DNA of 34,028 bases, taken from Blautia sp. GTDB taxonomy: Bacteria > Bacillota > Clostridia > Lachnospirales > Lachnospiraceae. The stretch's first letter is position 1. The number at the start of each line of letters is the position of its first letter. The position numbers and the translations under genes were made by a program. The stretch covers positions 1 through 34,028 of the forward strand of contig JAFUCO010000013.1 in NCBI GenBank assembly GCA_017459635.1, in the 5' to 3' direction. Under the pieces are notes generated by a model, which saw only the letters and a program-made list of their open reading frames with translations, ran no database searches and was not told the DNA's origin. Below, piece by piece: positions 171 through 30,976 of the stretch.

Positions 171-210
171 CAACTTTTTTATTTTTTGTTTTAATTTCTT
201 AAAACAAAAC

Positions 211-299
211 GGAGAAGGTGGGATTTGAACCCACGCGCCGCTATTAACGACCTACTCCCTTTCCAGGGGAGCCCCTTCGGCCAGCTTGGGTACTTCTCC
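211..299 (-). tRNA. tRNA-Ser (anticodon GGA)
   Basis: The 89-base gene has a 7-bp acceptor stem, GGAGAAG (293-299) with CTTCTCC (211-217). It has a T-arm with GGTTCAAATCC and a long variable arm typical of class II tRNAs. The anticodon loop reads CTGGAAA, giving GGA at 262-264, which decodes UCC and UCU. CCA is not encoded. Confidence 0.95.
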
Positions 300-370
300 T
301 CACAGCCCGACTTACATCACAATATGAAGCTAAGCTTATTTGCATTCACGGCAGACATCCTGCCGTAAGC

Positions 371-455
371 GGAGAGAGTGGGATTCGAACCCACGCGCCC
401 TTGCGGACAAACGGTTTTCAAGACCGCCTCGTTATGACCACTTCGATATCTCTCC
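371..455 (-). tRNA. tRNA-Ser (anticodon TGA)
   Basis: The 85-base gene has acceptor stem GGAGAGA (449-455) paired with TCTCTCC (371-377), a T-loop GGTTCGAATCC and a long variable arm. The anticodon loop CTTGAAA gives TGA at 418-420, which decodes UCA. It lies 71 bases upstream of tRNA-Ser(GGA) on the same strand, so the two are probably co-transcribed. Confidence 0.95.
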
Positions 456-15087: not shown

Positions 15088-15185
15088 AACACCATATACT
15101 TTTTTGTAAAGAAACATAGCGACTTTGTTTGGGATATGATACAATATCTGATATGGACTTGATTACGAGAAGGAGGGAGTCAGCT

Positions 15186-17924
15186 ATGGCAGATAATCAA
15201 GGCAGAAACAGGCGTATATCCTCGGGAGGTACAGGACTTCATAAAAGAGGATCCGGACTCAATACCGGACCGGTCGGCAGGACTGACGGGTATTCAGGCC
15301 GTACAGGCAGCAGCTCTTCAGGCAGCGGACGTCCATCCGGCACTGGACATCCGTCCGGCGGTGGCGGCAGACGTTCTTCTGGCGGCGGCGGAATGAATCC
15401 GATCACTCTCATCATCGTGGTCGTTATCGCTCTTCTCGGCGGAGGCGGCGGACTTGGCGCTCTTCTTGGCGGAGGCTCCGGCAGCAGCTCTTCAGGCAGC
15501 TCCGGAAGTTCTTCTTATACATCCACCCAGCATACAGGCGGAAGTTCTTCAGGCACACATACCTCCTCGCAGTATTCCGGCAGCGGTTCCTACGGACAGT
15601 CAACATATGGAGGCTCCTCCGGAAGTTCTTCCCTGTACGGCAATTACAGCAGTTCCGGTACAGGCGGCGGTCTCCAGGGGCTTCTGAACGCTCTTGGCTC
15701 AAGCAGCCAGCAGACTCTGACCGGAACATACTCAAACTGGGAAGAAGGCAGCAACACCGGTACGCTTAATACAGCAACAGCGCCGGAAGCTTCCGGAAAA
15801 TTCACAAAGCTTAAAGGAAACGGCAAAGATACAGTTACTATCATGATCTACATGTGCGGGACTGATCTTGAGTCCAAAAGCTCGATGGCAACCTCCGACA
15901 TCGTAGAGATGTCAAAGGCGACCTTATCCGATAAGGTAAATGTGATACTTTATACCGGCGGCTGCACCAAATGGAAAAACAATATCATCAGTTCCAGCAC
16001 CAACCAGATCTATCAGGTAAAGAACGGCGGTCTCCAGTGTCTTGTATCAAATGACGGTGACCGTACAATGACCGACCCTGAAACACTTACCCGTTTTATC
16101 AAGTGGTGCGCCAAGAACTTCCCGGCAAACCGCAACGAGCTGATCATGTGGGATCATGGCGGCGGCTCAGTAAGCGGCTACGGTTATGACCAGAAACACG
16201 CAAGAGCAGGTTCCATGAGCCTTCCGCAGATCAAGAGCGCCATAAAGAATTCGGGACAGACCTTTGATTTCATAGGTTTTGACGCCTGCCTGATGGCAAC
16301 TGCCGAAACCGCGCTGGCTGTATCCGATTCCGCAGACTATCTGCTTGCTTCCGAGGAGACCGAGCCCGGAACAGGCTGGTATTACACCAACTGGCTCACC
16401 TCACTTTCATCCAACACTTCTATGCCGACTACGGAACTCGGCAAGAAGATAATCGATGATTTTGTCGATGTCAGCGCGCGTCAGTGCAGGGGACAGTCCA
16501 CCACGCTTTCGCTGGTCGATCTTTCCGAACTGAAAAATACCTTCCCGGACAGCTTCTCCGAGTTCGCGGACGGCCTTAATGATCTGCTTGACAGCAAGAA
16601 TTACACAGCGATTGCAACTGCCCGTAAGAAAACCAGAGAGTTTGCCCGCACATCACGCATCAATCAGTACGACCTGGTTCACCTTGCCAAAAACCTCGGG
16701 ACAGATGAAGCCCGGCAGCTGGCTGATACCTGCCTGAGCGCGATCAAATACAACCGCACCAGCTCCGATATGACAAACTCCTACGGCCTTGCAGTCTATT
16801 TCCCAAGCCAGAGCAAATATACCGATTCAATGACAGCAACCTACAAAGCCCTTGAACTCAGCAGCAGCTATGCAAACAGCTTCAGAAAGATCGCTGCAGT
16901 TCAGGATGCAGGGCAGGCCGTGTCAGGCGGCGGAACACTGAGCGACCTCTTTGGAAGTCTCACCGGTTCATCTTCCTCAGGCGGCAGCATCAGCGACCTC
17001 CTGGGTGGTTCAGGCGGCTATTCTTCCTCTGGCGGCGGCTTAAGCGACCTGTTAGGCGGCTCTGGCGGTTACTATTCTTCAGGCGGCGGCTTAAGCGACC
17101 TGTTCGGAAGCTCAGGCGGTTACTCTTCAGGCAGCAGCCTGTTCGGCAGCAGCAGTTCTTCCGACGACATGATGATGGATATGCTCGGAGCACTGTTCTC
17201 GGGGCGTTCACTCAACACTGATCATACTACTGAGTATATTGATGAAAGCGGATATACCGAAGAAGATCTTTCCGAGATGCTCAGCGGAAACGTATTCAAC
17301 GGCTACAGCCTTAAATGGACGCAGCAGGACGGCCGCTTCACAATGCAGCTCCCGATGCCGCAGTGGAGCCTCGTAGATCATCTGGAGCGCAATGTATTTT
17401 ATGACGATGGCGAGGGATACATAGACCTTGGGCTTGACAATTCCTACACTATATCCGATGACGGAACTCTTACAGCCCAGGCTGACAGATACTGGATCTC
17501 CATTGACGGACATCCTGTCGCCTATTATCACATCACCTCGTCAGTCACGGATGAAGGCACCGTTAGCATCGGCCGTGTCCCCTGTTACCTGAACGATGAC
17601 CGCTGCAACCTTATACTGATATTTGACGCCGAGAATCCTTATGGATATGTGGCAGGCGCATCGTTTGATTACATCAACGGCGAGACAGACACGATCCCGA
17701 AATCCATGACCTCACTAAAAGACGGCGATGTGATCGATTTTGTCTGCGACTACTACAATTATGACCAGGAATATGACAACACCTATCTTCTTGACCAGAT
17801 GGTAGTGGACGGCGAACCCGAAATCACCGACACCTACATAGGCGATGACCCCTGCTTCGTCACATACCTCTTCACAGATATTTACGGCAGAGAATACTGG
17901 AGCGATCCGGTATGGCTCTCATGA
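15186..17924 (+). CDS. Clostripain-family (C11) cysteine peptidase with Ser/Gly-rich linkers
   Basis: This is a predicted surface or secreted cysteine peptidase of the C11 family, which cuts after Arg or Lys. The start at 15186 has AGGAGGG nine bases upstream and gives 912 residues. A basic Ser/Gly-rich start is followed by one membrane segment (NPITLIIVVVIALLGG, about 75-90), a long Ser/Gly/Tyr linker, and the peptidase domain (about 200-560). That domain has the catalytic dyad His324 (WDHGGG) and Cys368 (FDACLM). A second low-complexity block of repeated SDLLGGSGGY-type units (about 580-660) precedes an acidic beta-rich C-terminal region of about 240 residues with no family I recognise. The N-terminus looks like an uncleaved type II signal anchor. 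It is monocistronic. Confidence 0.88.
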   Translation: MADNQGRNRRISSGGTGLHKRGSGLNTGPVGRTDGYSGRTGSSSSGSGRPSGTGHPSGGGGRRSSGGGGMNPITLIIVVVIALLGGGGGLGALLGGGSGSSSSGSSGSSSYTSTQHTGGSSSGTHTSSQYSGSGSYGQSTYGGSSGSSSLYGNYSSSGTGGGLQGLLNALGSSSQQTLTGTYSNWEEGSNTGTLNTATAPEASGKFTKLKGNGKDTVTIMIYMCGTDLESKSSMATSDIVEMSKATLSDKVNVILYTGGCTKWKNNIISSSTNQIYQVKNGGLQCLVSNDGDRTMTDPETLTRFIKWCAKNFPANRNELIMWDHGGGSVSGYGYDQKHARAGSMSLPQIKSAIKNSGQTFDFIGFDACLMATAETALAVSDSADYLLASEETEPGTGWYYTNWLTSLSSNTSMPTTELGKKIIDDFVDVSARQCRGQSTTLSLVDLSELKNTFPDSFSEFADGLNDLLDSKNYTAIATARKKTREFARTSRINQYDLVHLAKNLGTDEARQLADTCLSAIKYNRTSSDMTNSYGLAVYFPSQSKYTDSMTATYKALELSSSYANSFRKIAAVQDAGQAVSGGGTLSDLFGSLTGSSSSGGSISDLLGGSGGYSSSGGGLSDLLGGSGGYYSSGGGLSDLFGSSGGYSSGSSLFGSSSSSDDMMMDMLGALFSGRSLNTDHTTEYIDESGYTEEDLSEMLSGNVFNGYSLKWTQQDGRFTMQLPMPQWSLVDHLERNVFYDDGEGYIDLGLDNSYTISDDGTLTAQADRYWISIDGHPVAYYHITSSVTDEGTVSIGRVPCYLNDDRCNLILIFDAENPYGYVAGASFDYINGETDTIPKSMTSLKDGDVIDFVCDYYNYDQEYDNTYLLDQMVVDGEPEITDTYIGDDPCFVTYLFTDIYGREYWSDPVWLS

Positions 17925-21936: not shown

Positions 21937-22437
21937 TCAGAATTCGCGTATATCTTCATCCTCCGAATCGCTCTTTTCGATGGAGCGTATCACCAGATAA
22001 TAGCTGTATCCGTCGTTTACACGAACCTGTACTCTGTCTCCAACTTTGCTGCCCTTCAGTGCCATTCCTATCGGTGATTCAATACTCACACGGTTTTCCA
22101 TTGAGTTTCCGCGGATTGAGGTAACAAGCTTGTATTTTTCCACCTCGTCATCCTCTTCGAAATACACTTCCACGGTATCGTTGAGTCCCACTTCATCAGA
22201 ATCTGACTCCTCTGAGATAACTGTCGCGTTTTTCAGCATGTTTTTAAGGTATTTGATGCGGCTCTCGTTCTGGTTTTTATATCTCTTGGCAGCATAATAC
22301 TCAAAATTTTCGCTCAGGTCGCCCTGGGCTCTCGCTTCCTTTACAGCCTCTATCGCTTCCTGCCTGATCACCAGAGTGCGGTGTTCTATCTCCTGTTCAA
22401 TTTTTTCTACATCCTTCTTTGTTAATTTTTCTCCCAT
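21937..22437 (-). CDS. greA: Transcription elongation factor GreA-type
   Basis: Gre factors stimulate RNA polymerase to cleave backtracked transcripts. The N-terminal coiled coil carries the catalytic acidic tip GDLSENFEYY (about residues 39-48), and the C-terminal FKBP-like domain has SIESPIGMALKGSKVGD. The 166-residue length is slightly longer than usual because of an acidic tail (KSDSEDEDIREF). CTGGAGAGGCAGG precedes the ATG. It lies downstream of the translational GTPase gene on the same strand, across a tandem repeat block. Confidence 0.9.
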   Translation of the reverse strand: MGEKLTKKDVEKIEQEIEHRTLVIRQEAIEAVKEARAQGDLSENFEYYAAKRYKNQNESRIKYLKNMLKNATVISEESDSDEVGLNDTVEVYFEEDDEVEKYKLVTSIRGNSMENRVSIESPIGMALKGSKVGDRVQVRVNDGYSYYLVIRSIEKSDSEDEDIREF

Positions 22438-22730: not shown

Positions 22731-25415
22731 TCACTCTTTTCCATCTTGTCCGGAATTTGCTTTTTTTGCCAGATATTCTGCTACATCCTGAGGTATCTCC
22801 TCCATCAGGAATGTATTGCTGCTTTTTCTTGTGCTCCCTATCAGTTCATGCATATCTCGCACGGCCGATCTGATTTCGGCATGAAGGCCGTCTGCGGAAA
22901 GCCTTGCGGCCCCCTGCCCCAGAATTATTATCTGTTCAAGTCCGTCCGAGGTGGCTACGGTCACACGGCTGCTTCTGCCGATCTTATGAACCGTCTTTTC
23001 AATATACTGGTCTGCTGTTTCAGCTTCTTTAGTATAAACAACATAAATATTATGGTACTTCTGTATCTCTTCCTGATGTCCTTCAACGCGGTAGGCATCG
23101 AACACAACGATAACGTTTCCGCCCCGAAGCGGCTGATAATTGCTGAGTATATCCTTAAGCCGGCTCTGGGCGAGGTGTATGTCGTCTTTTGCAAGTGTGC
23201 GAAGCTCTTCCCAGGCAAAAATCATATTATAGCCATCTACCAGAAGATATTCGTCCTGCGGCTTTTTGTTTTTTCCGGGTTTATATTCTGTTTCGGAAAC
23301 ACTGACTCTGCGTGGTGCATTCTCCGAGGGAAGCCTTCTTCTTACCGGACCGTAGGTACGCTCAAATATCTCCATCAGTTCCTTTTCGCCGGCGTAAGAA
23401 TCAACATACCCTGTACTCTTCTCCGCTCCGCTGCTGCCTCTTGAGCTGCTGTCCGTTTCATCACCATCGTTGTCTTCATCGCCTGTATCATTATGCATTC
23501 TGTGAAGGCCGCTCTCTACATGCATATGCTCCTCCACCTCATACCATGGCACAACAAAACCGGCTCCATGAGCGCAGAAAACCGATCCGGTCGGATTATC
23601 AAGGTCGGCTTCGGGATCATAACCTGTTTCCTTAACTATCTCATCCTGATCTTTGCATGGCTGATAGCCTGCAAGACTTGTGAAAAGCCGTCCCGTCCCT
23701 CTTGTATAGGCTGCAACCTGCAGCTGATAATCCCGCATCTCGGAAACAGCCGCCCGTCCTTTTATGATATAGCCTTCTCCTGAAGGTTCAGGGTCATCCA
23801 TGCTCCCCTGCATCCTCTGAATGTCAGAGATAGCCCTGCCAAGATATTCGGAAGGGATCTCGAGCATAAACTCATAAACCGGCTCCAGCAGGACTGATTC
23901 CGCTTTTCTGAGTCCCATCCGTACCGCCCGGTAGGTAGCCTGTCTGAAGTCACCGCCTTCAGTATGCTTTATGTGCGCTCTTCCGGTCAGAAGAGTGATG
24001 GCCATATCGGTTATCGGGGCTCCTGTCAGCACACCCCTGTGTTCCTTCTCGCTGAGATGTGTAAGTATAAGCCGCTGCCAGTTTCTGTCAAGGACATCCT
24101 CACTGCAGGCTGTAAAGAACTGAAGTCCTGATCCCGTTTCTCCCGGTTCAAGCAGCAGATGTACTTCCGCATAATGCCGGAGCGGTTCAAAATGCCCCAC
24201 TCCTTCCACGATATTGCTGATCGTTTCTTTATAGACAATGCTTCCGGCATCAAATTCCACTACTGTATGGAAGCGTTCCCATATCATCTTTTTAAGTATC
24301 TCAGTCTGGACTTCACCCATCAGCATTGCATGAATTTCCTGCAGGCGTGCATCCCACACAATATGCAGCTGGGGATCCTCTTCCTCAAGCTCCTTCAGTC
24401 TGGCAAGCATCACATGCACATCCACATTTTCAGGCAGCCTGATGCGATAATCAAGCACAGGCGAGAGCACGGGCAGTGCCGCATCCTTTTCTAATCCGAG
24501 TCCCTGTCCACAGAAGGTATCTGAAAGGCCCGTGACGGCACATACTGTACCGGCCTCAGCTTCCTGTACAGCCTCGTACCTGGCGCCGGAATAGATGCGT
24601 ATCTGATCCGCCTTTCCCTGTTCAAGAACCTGCTTTACCTTCAGGGTGCCGCCTGTTATCTTCATATAGGTGAGCCGGCTCCCCTTGTCGTCCCGCGCGA
24701 TCTTATATACCCTGGCCGCAAAATCCGGCGGATATTCCGTTGGAATCATGTACCGGTCTGTAAATTCAAGAAGCTCCCTGACTCCATCCATCCGAAGGGC
24801 CGATCCATATAAGCATGGAAAAGCTTTTCTTTCATGGATGACTCTGCTGATCTCTTCATCCGGGAGAGTTTCCTCCTGAAGGAAGATATCCATCGCCCTC
24901 TCATCACAGGTCGCCAGGTTTTCATAAAAAGCCGGCATTTCCTGCGGGTCATATACAACACAGCTTTCGCTAAGGTGTTTCTTTATATCCTCATATAGCG
25001 CCTGCCTGTCCGTCCCTTCCTGATCCATCTTGTTGATAAAAAGGAAAGTCGGTATTTCATATCTCTCAAGGAGCCTCCAGAGCGTCCTGGTATGTCCCTG
25101 TACACCGTCAGCGCCGCTTATGACCAGTATCGCATAGTCAAGCACCTGCAGCGTTCTCTCCATCTCGGACGAAAAATCCACATGCCCGGGAGTATCAAGA
25201 AGCGTCAGAATGGTATCCGGCAGGTGTATCACTGCCTGTTTGGAAAAAATAGTGATGCCCCGCTCCTTTTCCATCTCATAGGTATCAAGGAAGGCATCTC
25301 CGTGATCCACCCTGCCCGCTTTTCTTATCTCTCCTGAAAGATACAGCATGCTTTCAGATAATGTAGTCTTCCCCGCATCCACATGTGCAAGGATACCTGC
25401 TGCAATTCTTTTCAT
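22731..25415 (-). CDS. TetM/EF-G-like ribosomal GTPase fused to a Rae1/YacP-type NYN nuclease domain
   Basis: The 894-residue protein starts as a TetM/TetO-like ribosomal protection GTPase: G1 AHVDAGKTT (10-18), DTPGH (74-78), NKMD (128-131), then EF-G-type domains II-V to about residue 680. The domain IV tip region reads SVFCAHGAGFVVPWYEV rather than the YSPVSTP loop of TetM. An acidic, Ser-rich stretch (about 650-670) is inserted nearby. From about residue 720 a complete NYN/PIN domain follows: LLVDGYNMIFAWEELR (Asp727), VIVVFDAYRVEG (Asp773), TKEAETADQYIEK (Asp802) and ATSDGLEQ (Asp824). These motifs closely match B. subtilis Rae1 (YacP), which cuts mRNA in the ribosomal A site. Genes annotated as tetracycline resistance in this size class may be the same family. 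I infer a translation-linked ribonuclease factor rather than a drug-resistance gene. Confidence 0.88.
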   Translation of the reverse strand: MKRIAAGILAHVDAGKTTLSESMLYLSGEIRKAGRVDHGDAFLDTYEMEKERGITIFSKQAVIHLPDTILTLLDTPGHVDFSSEMERTLQVLDYAILVISGADGVQGHTRTLWRLLERYEIPTFLFINKMDQEGTDRQALYEDIKKHLSESCVVYDPQEMPAFYENLATCDERAMDIFLQEETLPDEEISRVIHERKAFPCLYGSALRMDGVRELLEFTDRYMIPTEYPPDFAARVYKIARDDKGSRLTYMKITGGTLKVKQVLEQGKADQIRIYSGARYEAVQEAEAGTVCAVTGLSDTFCGQGLGLEKDAALPVLSPVLDYRIRLPENVDVHVMLARLKELEEEDPQLHIVWDARLQEIHAMLMGEVQTEILKKMIWERFHTVVEFDAGSIVYKETISNIVEGVGHFEPLRHYAEVHLLLEPGETGSGLQFFTACSEDVLDRNWQRLILTHLSEKEHRGVLTGAPITDMAITLLTGRAHIKHTEGGDFRQATYRAVRMGLRKAESVLLEPVYEFMLEIPSEYLGRAISDIQRMQGSMDDPEPSGEGYIIKGRAAVSEMRDYQLQVAAYTRGTGRLFTSLAGYQPCKDQDEIVKETGYDPEADLDNPTGSVFCAHGAGFVVPWYEVEEHMHVESGLHRMHNDTGDEDNDGDETDSSSRGSSGAEKSTGYVDSYAGEKELMEIFERTYGPVRRRLPSENAPRRVSVSETEYKPGKNKKPQDEYLLVDGYNMIFAWEELRTLAKDDIHLAQSRLKDILSNYQPLRGGNVIVVFDAYRVEGHQEEIQKYHNIYVVYTKEAETADQYIEKTVHKIGRSSRVTVATSDGLEQIIILGQGAARLSADGLHAEIRSAVRDMHELIGSTRKSSNTFLMEEIPQDVAEYLAKKANSGQDGKE

Positions 25416-25461: not shown

Positions 25462-25533
25462 GACCCAGCCGCCTGCGGCCGGGCCGTGAATAACAATTAT
25501 CTTCCTGTAGTGAATAACAATTATCTTCCTGTA
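25462..25533. repeat. Degenerate element copy followed by a 24-base direct repeat
   Basis: CAGCCGCCTGCGGCCGG and GGGCCGTGAATAAC resemble the first hairpin and right end of the dispersed element. The sequence GTGAATAACAATTATCTTCC plus four more bases then occurs twice in direct tandem (25486-25509 and 25510-25533), as if the element's right end had been duplicated. It lies upstream of the GTPase gene and downstream of the ABC operon. No promoter for the GTPase gene could be singled out here. Confidence 0.65.
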
Positions 25534-25542
25534 ACGCATAGC

Positions 25543-25575
25543 AAAGGGAAGCAGGTTTATCTCCTGCTTCCCTTT
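25543..25575 (-). terminator. Probable terminator of the ABC transporter operon
   Basis: A 13-bp perfect stem, AAAGGGAAGCAGG (25543-25555) with CCTGCTTCCCTTT (25563-25575), has a 7-base loop and lies about 40 bases beyond the last permease stop. The T-run is short (CCCTTT then GC), so termination may be partial. Confidence 0.7.
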
Positions 25576-30229: not shown

Positions 30230-30976
30230 CTATGACTGTGATAGCCCCTGTGCAATCAGATCGGCGTTTGTGTCCTCCAGGTTGATCAACACAACCAATT
30301 CCTCCGCCGACGCATAATCTCTGATATTCGGAGACATTCCCTTTGTATCTGTTTCCCGTCTCCACTGAGAAGCCGTTTTACCAAAAAGAGCCATATTCAG
30401 GACATCAGCTTCCGAAGCATACTTATACGATATTTCCTCCGGAGTAAGATCCGGCCTTATCAGAAATCTCTTAACTGCATCCGTATGAATGCGGTAGTTT
30501 ATCTTTGACAGCTCTCTCTTCGCATCCCAGCCAACAGACAAGCGCTGTGCTTCGTCTTTCTTCAGCCGCTGATAATCTTTTATCAGATAAAGCTTAAATT
30601 CCAGCGAAACCCATGATGCGAACTCAAAAGCGATATCGGAATGAGCATAGGTTCCGCCATATCTGCCTGCCTTGGAAACAATGCCGACAGCGTTCATTTT
30701 CTCAATCCATTGCGTTGGAGTCATAACCAGCCTTCCTGGCTCACTTCTAACCGTCTGGAATTCCATACGGTTAAAATTAGGATTGTATAGCCCCTCCCAC
30801 ATCGCAAGATAGTCAATCGTCGAATAGGAGCTCATCCAGTTAGATATAACAATGCGCGGATCATCGCTGTTTTTGTACTTGGCGATGTCAGTCATAGAAA
30901 TGTAAGCCTCTTCATTAACCACACTTCCATATAGCCTGATCTCCACGCCATTCGCATTGATCGTTTTGTTCTTCAT
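30230..30976 (-). CDS. KilA-N domain protein, shortened by an internal amber codon
   Basis: The 248-residue frame has the KilA-N DNA-binding-type fold of phage and mobile elements: EAYISMTDIAKYKNSDDP, then WMSSYSTIDYLAMWEGL, and the late FEFASWVSLEFKLYLIKDYQ. It stops at a TAG (30230-30232). Beyond it the same frame runs on sensibly for 45 residues (RLKILREKAYRQLELLRSNG and more) to a TGA at 30092-30094. The full gene was therefore probably 30092-30976, with one Glu codon changed to TAG. It sits inside the methyltransferase debris, seven bases after a small ORF. The role in such loci is unknown. Confidence 0.75.
   Translation of the reverse strand: MKNKTINANGVEIRLYGSVVNEEAYISMTDIAKYKNSDDPRIVISNWMSSYSTIDYLAMWEGLYNPNFNRMEFQTVRSEPGRLVMTPTQWIEKMNAVGIVSKAGRYGGTYAHSDIAFEFASWVSLEFKLYLIKDYQRLKKDEAQRLSVGWDAKRELSKINYRIHTDAVKRFLIRPDLTPEEISYKYASEADVLNMALFGKTASQWRRETDTKGMSPNIRDYASAEELVVLINLEDTNADLIAQGLSQS

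Follow-up and report, generated by a model that had tools for sequence, protein, structure and literature searches.

The window analysed here, a stretch of 34,028 nucleotides from Blautia sp. (GenBank assembly GCA_017459635.1, contig JAFUCO010000013.1), contains a gene for an 894-residue protein in which a GTPase of the EF-G and TetM type is joined to a YacP/Rae1-type NYN nuclease domain. Comparison with related genomes indicates that this fusion stands in place of the free yacP gene, the loss of which was stepwise, with surviving intermediates. The architecture itself is already known. In its passage on these fusions, Atkinson 2015 (PMC4342817) describes Tet proteins from ten Clostridiales species that carry an added NYN RNase domain resembling YacP. 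Our literature search, which did not cover the Rae1 papers Leroy 2017 and Condon 2018, found no other paper treating the fusion. New here are the replacement of free yacP, the one-clade origin, the intermediates, the transfer and the frozen non-TetM tip of domain IV.

The protein is encoded on the minus strand, at the coordinates given in the first-pass annotation, by a single uninterrupted open reading frame (ORF) with an ATG start, whereas the plus strand over the same range gives a stop-containing reading. The first-pass annotation had proposed a GTPase and a Rae1-like NYN domain in a single protein, and the ORF indeed carries both: the Pfam search that it had suggested matched GTP_EFTU, EFG_IV and NYN_YacP (Table 1). 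The motifs it quoted are present in the translation, its numbering of Asp727 and Asp773 is exact, and the G1, G3 (DTPGH) and G4 (NKMD) motifs of the GTPase are all intact. A frameshift or assembly joint between two neighbouring genes was ruled out as the source of the fusion, because the same single long frame recurs in many other genomes.

The fusion in place of free yacP

Genomes with the fusion are almost always without a separate yacP, a point that the first-pass annotation had proposed to survey. Among 157 genomes of the order, 55 have the fused form and 89 the stand-alone form, 2 of them being counted in both, and 15 have no NYN match; if the two forms were independent, 31 genomes would be expected to carry both, shared ancestry being ignored in this estimate. 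At the class level, NYN was found in 99 of 146 genomes (55 fused, 44 stand-alone) and in none of the other 47, and no genome clearly had both forms. The fused class here comprises 50 frames of more than 800 residues and five shorter ones, four of which include the GTPase tail (G529, G530, G433 and G450), while in the fifth (G525) the tail is in a different, adjacent frame; the stand-alone frames have 168-216 residues. A 21-bit second NYN_YacP-like match was seen in one fusion genome (G499:C1:2323953-2324090, L245) within a 163-residue frame, with neither rlmB nor sigH found adjoining. This match may represent a stand-alone copy that has diverged or is in decay.

The place from which yacP is missing can be recognised. 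Stand-alone yacP adjoins rlmB in a cysS-rlmB-yacP-sigH neighbourhood in 8 of 10 genomes of the window's family; at one locus of this survey (L039) a longer antisense ORF overlies yacP, and the position was taken from the NYN profile match. In 18 fusion genomes, including the window's, a search extending about 1.5 kb from rlmB detected no yacP at E-values up to 0.05. In 16 of these 18, again including the window's, sigH follows rlmB after 2-349 bases; in the other two (G235 and G156) sigH was out of reach. Intermediate states survive as well. Two genomes of one genus (G349 and G365) carry the fusion together with an intact yacP at the old place between rlmB and sigH, and a third genome of that genus (G290) has, besides the fusion, a yacP that is interrupted by stops and lacks parts. 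In a genome of another family (G265), only a 5' stub of yacP is left between rlmB and sigH. The intact native copies of G349 and G365 (L168 and L169) sit on a very long branch of 1.19 changes per column with their acidic residues intact, as if under relaxed selection.

In one case the fusion has moved horizontally. The GTPase of G109, a genome of another family, is 82% and 81% identical to those of G290 and G365, whereas RlmB, MrnC and SigH taken together are 50% identical. This difference shows that the fusion was transferred and came to lie in a genome with a native yacP, which in G290 has decayed.

The origin of the fusion was examined with a GTPase tree (FastTree) of 73 rows, consisting of 44 of the 103 fused sequences, 25 unfused sequences, 2 outgroup sequences and 2 cuts of a contig-truncated sequence (G320). 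One clade (SH 99), nested among unfused GTPases, contains all 44 of the fused ones sampled, and the only other member of the clade is the truncated G320, which is probably a fusion cut off by the contig end. One fusion event fits this topology, and the fusion probably arose once. The tree of the NYN domain (37 fused and 32 stand-alone sequences) is compatible with this reading: a constraint holding the fused sequences as one clade was not rejected (p-AU 0.86), and the free quick tree, which implies 4 changes, has a lower likelihood than the tree with the fused sequences together.

The fusion is widespread. In the window's family, PF05991 was found in 224 of 250 genomes, in single copy in 219. 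Among the matches listed, ten frames have 174-210 residues, five have 252-601 (G078, G119, G054, G213 and G190, some of them at contig ends) and the rest have 848-1065. Two NYN matches occur in five of the 224 genomes, where they lie at contig ends (G061 and G145), represent one frame in two pieces (G110), include a weak second match (G232) or have the second match at a contig start (G030). The window's own genome, 66.8% complete, has the fusion as its sole NYN_YacP match. For the phylum we searched with the GTPase tail alone, and 20 of 249 genomes matched, with 11 fused-length frames and 3 unfused ones outside the window's class. The named relatives (best 80 of 587) are mostly Clostridia, the majority from Lachnospiraceae and Oscillospiraceae, together with Anaerovorax, Fusibacter and others; judged by them, the window's genome would probably belong to Lachnospiraceae.

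The GTPase and the question of tetracycline resistance

Residue conservation was counted in 103 fused and 29 unfused GTPases, 5 of the fused rows being second cuts of an already counted gene. H78 of the DTPGH motif is kept in 102 of 103 fused and in all 29 unfused rows, and K129 and D131 in every row. The residues G405, G407, H408, E410, P411, H414, Y415 and E417 in the first tip loop of domain IV are invariant in both sets, as are H484, T485, G488, D489, R491 and R496 in the second; four further positions of the second loop are nearly so, with one exception each at K483 and F490 and two each at H481 and G487 among the 132 rows. H481 is His in 101 of 103 fused and in all unfused rows and aligns with the loop His of EF-G, which we take to be H583 of the E. 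coli protein, whereas TetM has Tyr. K483 and H484 occupy the positions of Pro and Val in TetM, presumably the drug-releasing residues. Overall, HYAE replaces FWAS and HIKHTEGGDFR replaces YSPVSTPADFR of TetM, and a TetM-type tip, with Trp in one loop and Tyr-Ser-Pro-Val in the other, was not found. The first-pass annotation had remarked that the TetM loop is absent from domain IV; the alignment and the conserved replacements agree with it. Judged from these rows, the tip is neither that of TetM nor that of plain EF-G, and it is near frozen throughout the subfamily.

Domain V is followed by a tail, which we assign to the GTPase because it lies almost wholly past the end of the TetO and TetM matches (residues 1-587 and 1-586, respectively) and because unfused relatives fetched whole terminate at, or a few residues from, its end. 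C587, S611, F613 and G617 of the tail are invariant in fused and unfused rows, and C614 and W624 in the fused rows. Two subfamily GTPase genes (L198 in G082 and L246 in G525) are broken by an apparent frame change, either through decay or through assembly error, and one genome (G487) encodes two unfused subfamily GTPases, in frames of 656 and 655 residues.

For the fusions with Tet proteins, Atkinson 2015 suggests a new antibiotic resistance mechanism in its passage on them (PMC4342817); the GTPase would dislodge tetracycline or another drug, and the RNase would add to resistance. The closest solved GTPases by sequence are indeed TetO (3e-76) and TetM (1.6e-72), with EF-G just behind (5.8e-71), and a relative from Agathobacter rectalis is annotated as TetM/TetW/TetO/TetS family. 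However, the fusion falls under the NCBIfam cut-offs for both tet_protect (414.8 against 775 bits) and tet_protect_M_W (285.3 against 1100 bits). The tip residues of TetM are replaced by conserved His and Lys, with H414, Y415 and H484 present in 132 of 132 rows and K483 in 131. The near family-wide, mostly single-copy presence of NYN is unlike that of an occasionally acquired gene. Moreover, four genomes chosen for a second GTPase frame of 643-644 residues (G512, G431, G173 and G420) have, besides the fusion, a TetM/W-type protein above the M_W cut-off (in G420 with 1284.7 bits on TetM_W), which would be unneeded if the fusion sufficed. We therefore regard drug removal as improbable, and the protective role entertained in the first-pass annotation is not supported. 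In our best reading of the sequences, the fusion is not a tetracycline-resistance gene. If so, a common gut protein that is at least sometimes labelled as a tetracycline-resistance protein would be a ribosome-linked mRNA-decay factor, and resistance-gene counts resting on such labels could be inflated.

A mobile resistance gene was likewise considered and rejected: 1347 of 72,556 plasmid records match, and only 2 cover at least 80% of the protein, a 518 kb replicon (Monoglobus) and a 252 kb one (Agathobacter). In addition, a scan of 10 neighbours around three copies related by horizontal transfer found no integrase or transposase. A similar unfused GTPase with 48.5-49.5% identity over residues 1-634 was seen in 28 listed plasmid records of Ligilactobacillus salivarius, 27 of which are annotated as TetM/TetW/TetO/TetS family.

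The nuclease, the linker and a proposed mode of action

The NYN domain matches the solved YacP of B. subtilis at 3.7e-25. Among rows with more than 120 matched residues, identical sequences being kept once, D727, D773, D802, E806 and D824 occur without exception in the 120 fused and the 32 stand-alone sequences; the acidic active site predicted in the first-pass annotation is thus complete. Such domains were first proposed for maturation of rRNA or tRNA, a proposal cited in PMC4342817, and the GTPase might accordingly bring a processing enzyme to ribosomes. We consider this highly improbable, since the characterised relative, Rae1, is described as an endoribonuclease cutting mRNA in the ribosomal A site (passages in PMC6613710 and PMC12320835), and since the 26 of 250 genomes in the window's family without a NYN_YacP match demonstrate that no essential maturase is involved there. 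A known substrate of Rae1 is S1025 (named in PMC11780869). Among phage records, 13 match the NYN part, 5 of them over at least 80% of it; they are from faecal 'Bacteriophage sp.', Listeria, Staphylococcus and Enterococcus, no annotation is listed for them, and host DNA is possible.

Fused and stand-alone nucleases differ at their end. The C-terminal segment of the NYN domain is absent in 29 of 119 fused sequences, whereas all 32 intact stand-alone copies have it (Fisher p 7e-4, calculated with 33 stand-alone rows and ancestry ignored). On a GTPase tree with 103 fused rows, 28 of them short, this change takes 15 steps, at least 12 of which are forced by starred branches. In B. subtilis Rae1, the substitution R166P near the C-terminal end is one of the suppressors of efp that are interpreted as loss-of-function mutations (PMC6613710, passage on the suppressors). 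The simplest reading, albeit a conjectural one, is that the GTPase takes over the ribosome-anchoring role of the Rae1 C-terminal segment.

The linker between the two parts has a median length of 78 residues and ranges from 61 to 146 in the 103 fused rows. The pattern [ED][LVIA]xxI[FILYMV]x(0-2)[TE], composed after the linkers had been viewed, occurs in 94 of the 103 (98 genes), whereas 200 shuffles gave 1.0 on average and 4 at most; in the window's protein it corresponds to ELMEIFERTYG in mid-linker.

In the reading that we prefer, and which we hold to be evenly balanced between right and wrong, the fusion is the Rae1/YacP of these bacteria, held in cis with a dedicated EF-G-like GTPase that senses stalled ribosomes. 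By analogy with the two families, it would bind ribosomes, hydrolyse GTP and cleave mRNA in the A site. That the GTPase brings a Rae1-like nuclease to ribosomes is a reasonable supposition; the replacement of free yacP supports it indirectly, as does the fact that fusions have repeatedly lost the C-terminal segment of NYN. The recognition of stalls and the order of events are speculation on our part. The GTPase might engage ribosomes with an empty A site during paused or stalled elongation, and the tip of domain IV, with its conserved His and the Lys-His-Thr/GGDFR loop, could probe or reset the decoding site. GTP hydrolysis would then free the GTPase from the ribosome, the nuclease on its long variable linker would enter the vacated A site and cut the mRNA, after which the cut message would be degraded and the ribosome taken up by non-stop rescue. 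The two parts would have to act sequentially because the A site should not accommodate Rae1 and an EF-G-type domain IV at once; we infer that the linker is long enough for such successive entry.

Several observations weigh against this reading. The function is dispensable, as the family includes the 26 genomes without a NYN match. Unfused GTPases (≥85 bits) accompany only 18 of the 89 stand-alone YacP genomes of the order, and an unfused GTPase without NYN_YacP is present in 4 class-level genomes (G456, G416, G442 and G419); each partner occurs alone, and thus neither needs the other in general. In the window's family, an unfused GTPase was found in 9 of 10 genomes with stand-alone YacP as opposed to 0 of 20 tested among the 26 without NYN, and the latter may descend from fused ancestors. 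The gene neighbours of the fusion vary between genomes, so that context gives no functional hint, and an earlier, stricter linker pattern matched just 33 of 103 linkers. All 18 unfused GTPases of at least 85 bits in the order accompany stand-alone YacP, and of the 15 order genomes without NYN, 2 match the GTPase (G320, at a contig end, and G276, with 49.9 bits). Obligate co-retention of unfused GTPase and YacP was rejected, as it fails at the class level, where 4 genomes with an unfused GTPase have YacP and 4 have no NYN.

The separate occurrence of the two partners, together with the long and variable linker, would also suit a GTPase acting as a specialised translocation or recycling factor and an independent nuclease, the fusion merely co-expressing two ribosome-bound activities. 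We regard this as rather unlikely. The linker motif is kept in most rows, and the C-terminal segment, retained by every intact stand-alone copy, has been lost repeatedly in fusions, which suggests that the two parts work together. More tentatively, and with less confidence than in the preferred reading of a stall-sensing GTPase held in cis, a large part of the gut Clostridia may have swapped free Rae1 for a two-in-one ribosome quality-control factor, in which the GTPase would test whether the ribosome can restart and otherwise hand the A site to the tethered nuclease; the anchor would become partly dispensable, and gain of the fusion would lead to loss of the native gene. The evolutionary swap between fused and free Rae1, with its surviving intermediates, would offer a natural experiment on how the A site is reached and on what GTPase delivery and the Rae1 C-terminal segment contribute.

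Features of the window and comparison with known systems

Table 1. Positions of the fusion gene, its parts and a neighbouring gene in the window.
Feature	Positions	Strand	Basis
Fusion gene, stop codon included	22731..25415	-	ORF, translation and Pfam
GTPase (G) domain, residues 4-223; P-loop AHVDAGKT, DTPGH with H78, NKMD	24747..25406	-	Pfam GTP_EFTU (residues 4-223, 8.8e-51)
EF-G domains II and III, residues 232-388	24252..24722	-	Pfam EF-G_D2 (232-301) and EFG_III (319-388; 22.7 bits, below its cut-off of 27)
EF-G domain IV, residues 392-506	23898..24242	-	Pfam EFG_IV (392-506)
Domain IV tip loop, residues 405-417 (GxGHxEPLxHYxE)	24165..24203	-	Row conservation
Domain IV tip loop, residues 478-499 (GxxHxKHTxGGDFR)	23919..23984	-	Alignment with EF-G and TetM, row conservation
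EF-G domain V, residues 508-590	23646..23894	-	Pfam EFG_C (508-590)
Subfamily tail after domain V, residues 585-635 (PC..., SVFCxHGAGFxVxW..V...H)	23511..23663	-	Alignment of relatives, end of TetM/TetO match
Variable linker, residues 636-722 (87 residues)	23250..23510	-	
Short linker motif, residues 676-693 (ELMEIFERTYG, 679-689)	23337..23390	-	Pattern count against shuffles
YacP/Rae1-type NYN nuclease domain, residues 723-894	22734..23249	-	Pfam NYN_YacP (PF05991, 724-884, 1e-47, 162.6 bits against a cut-off of 24.6), match to solved YacP, acidic residues
Neighbouring GreA gene (context, no part of the claimed system)	21937..22437	-	

Upstream of the fusion gene, the leader contains two tandem copies of the 24-base sequence tacaggaagataattgttattcac (25486-25533, minus strand). 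Just upstream of this repeat, a 10-base hairpin with three T's after it was recognised by eye at about 25546-25572. It may terminate the ABC-transporter operon, so that the fusion gene is probably transcribed on its own. An Rfam search found no family in or near the gene. Elsewhere in the window are a Clostripain-family (Peptidase_C11) protein whose long N-terminal part is rich in Gly and Ser (15129-17924), a protein with KilA-N, a phage-type domain (30230-30976), and two tRNA genes close together (210-455, minus strand).

The nearest described systems are the Tet-NYN fusions of Atkinson 2015, which have the same combination of an EF-G-type, Tet-like GTPase and a YacP-like NYN domain and also come from Clostridiales; the passages devoted to them contain no analysis of the tip, no link to yacP loss and no evolutionary order. 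Rae1/YacP of B. subtilis (PDB 5mq8 and 5mq9) shares the NYN domain by sequence likeness and the same acidic residues, and its gene adjoins yacO (rlmB) just as the stand-alone relatives adjoin rlmB. However, it is a free protein without a GTPase, and its C-terminal segment is kept in stand-alone relatives but lost in part of the fusions. TetM and TetO have the five-domain GTPase in common with the window's protein, at about 250-260 bits up to the end of domain V, but have neither NYN nor tail, and their tip loops differ at the positions that we take to be drug-releasing. EF-G shares the domain order and the loop His of domain IV (H481), whereas its loop sequence is different, the fusion lies below the EF-G equivalog cut-off (TIGR00484, 288.4 against 659.4 bits), and the tail and the nuclease are extra in the fusion.

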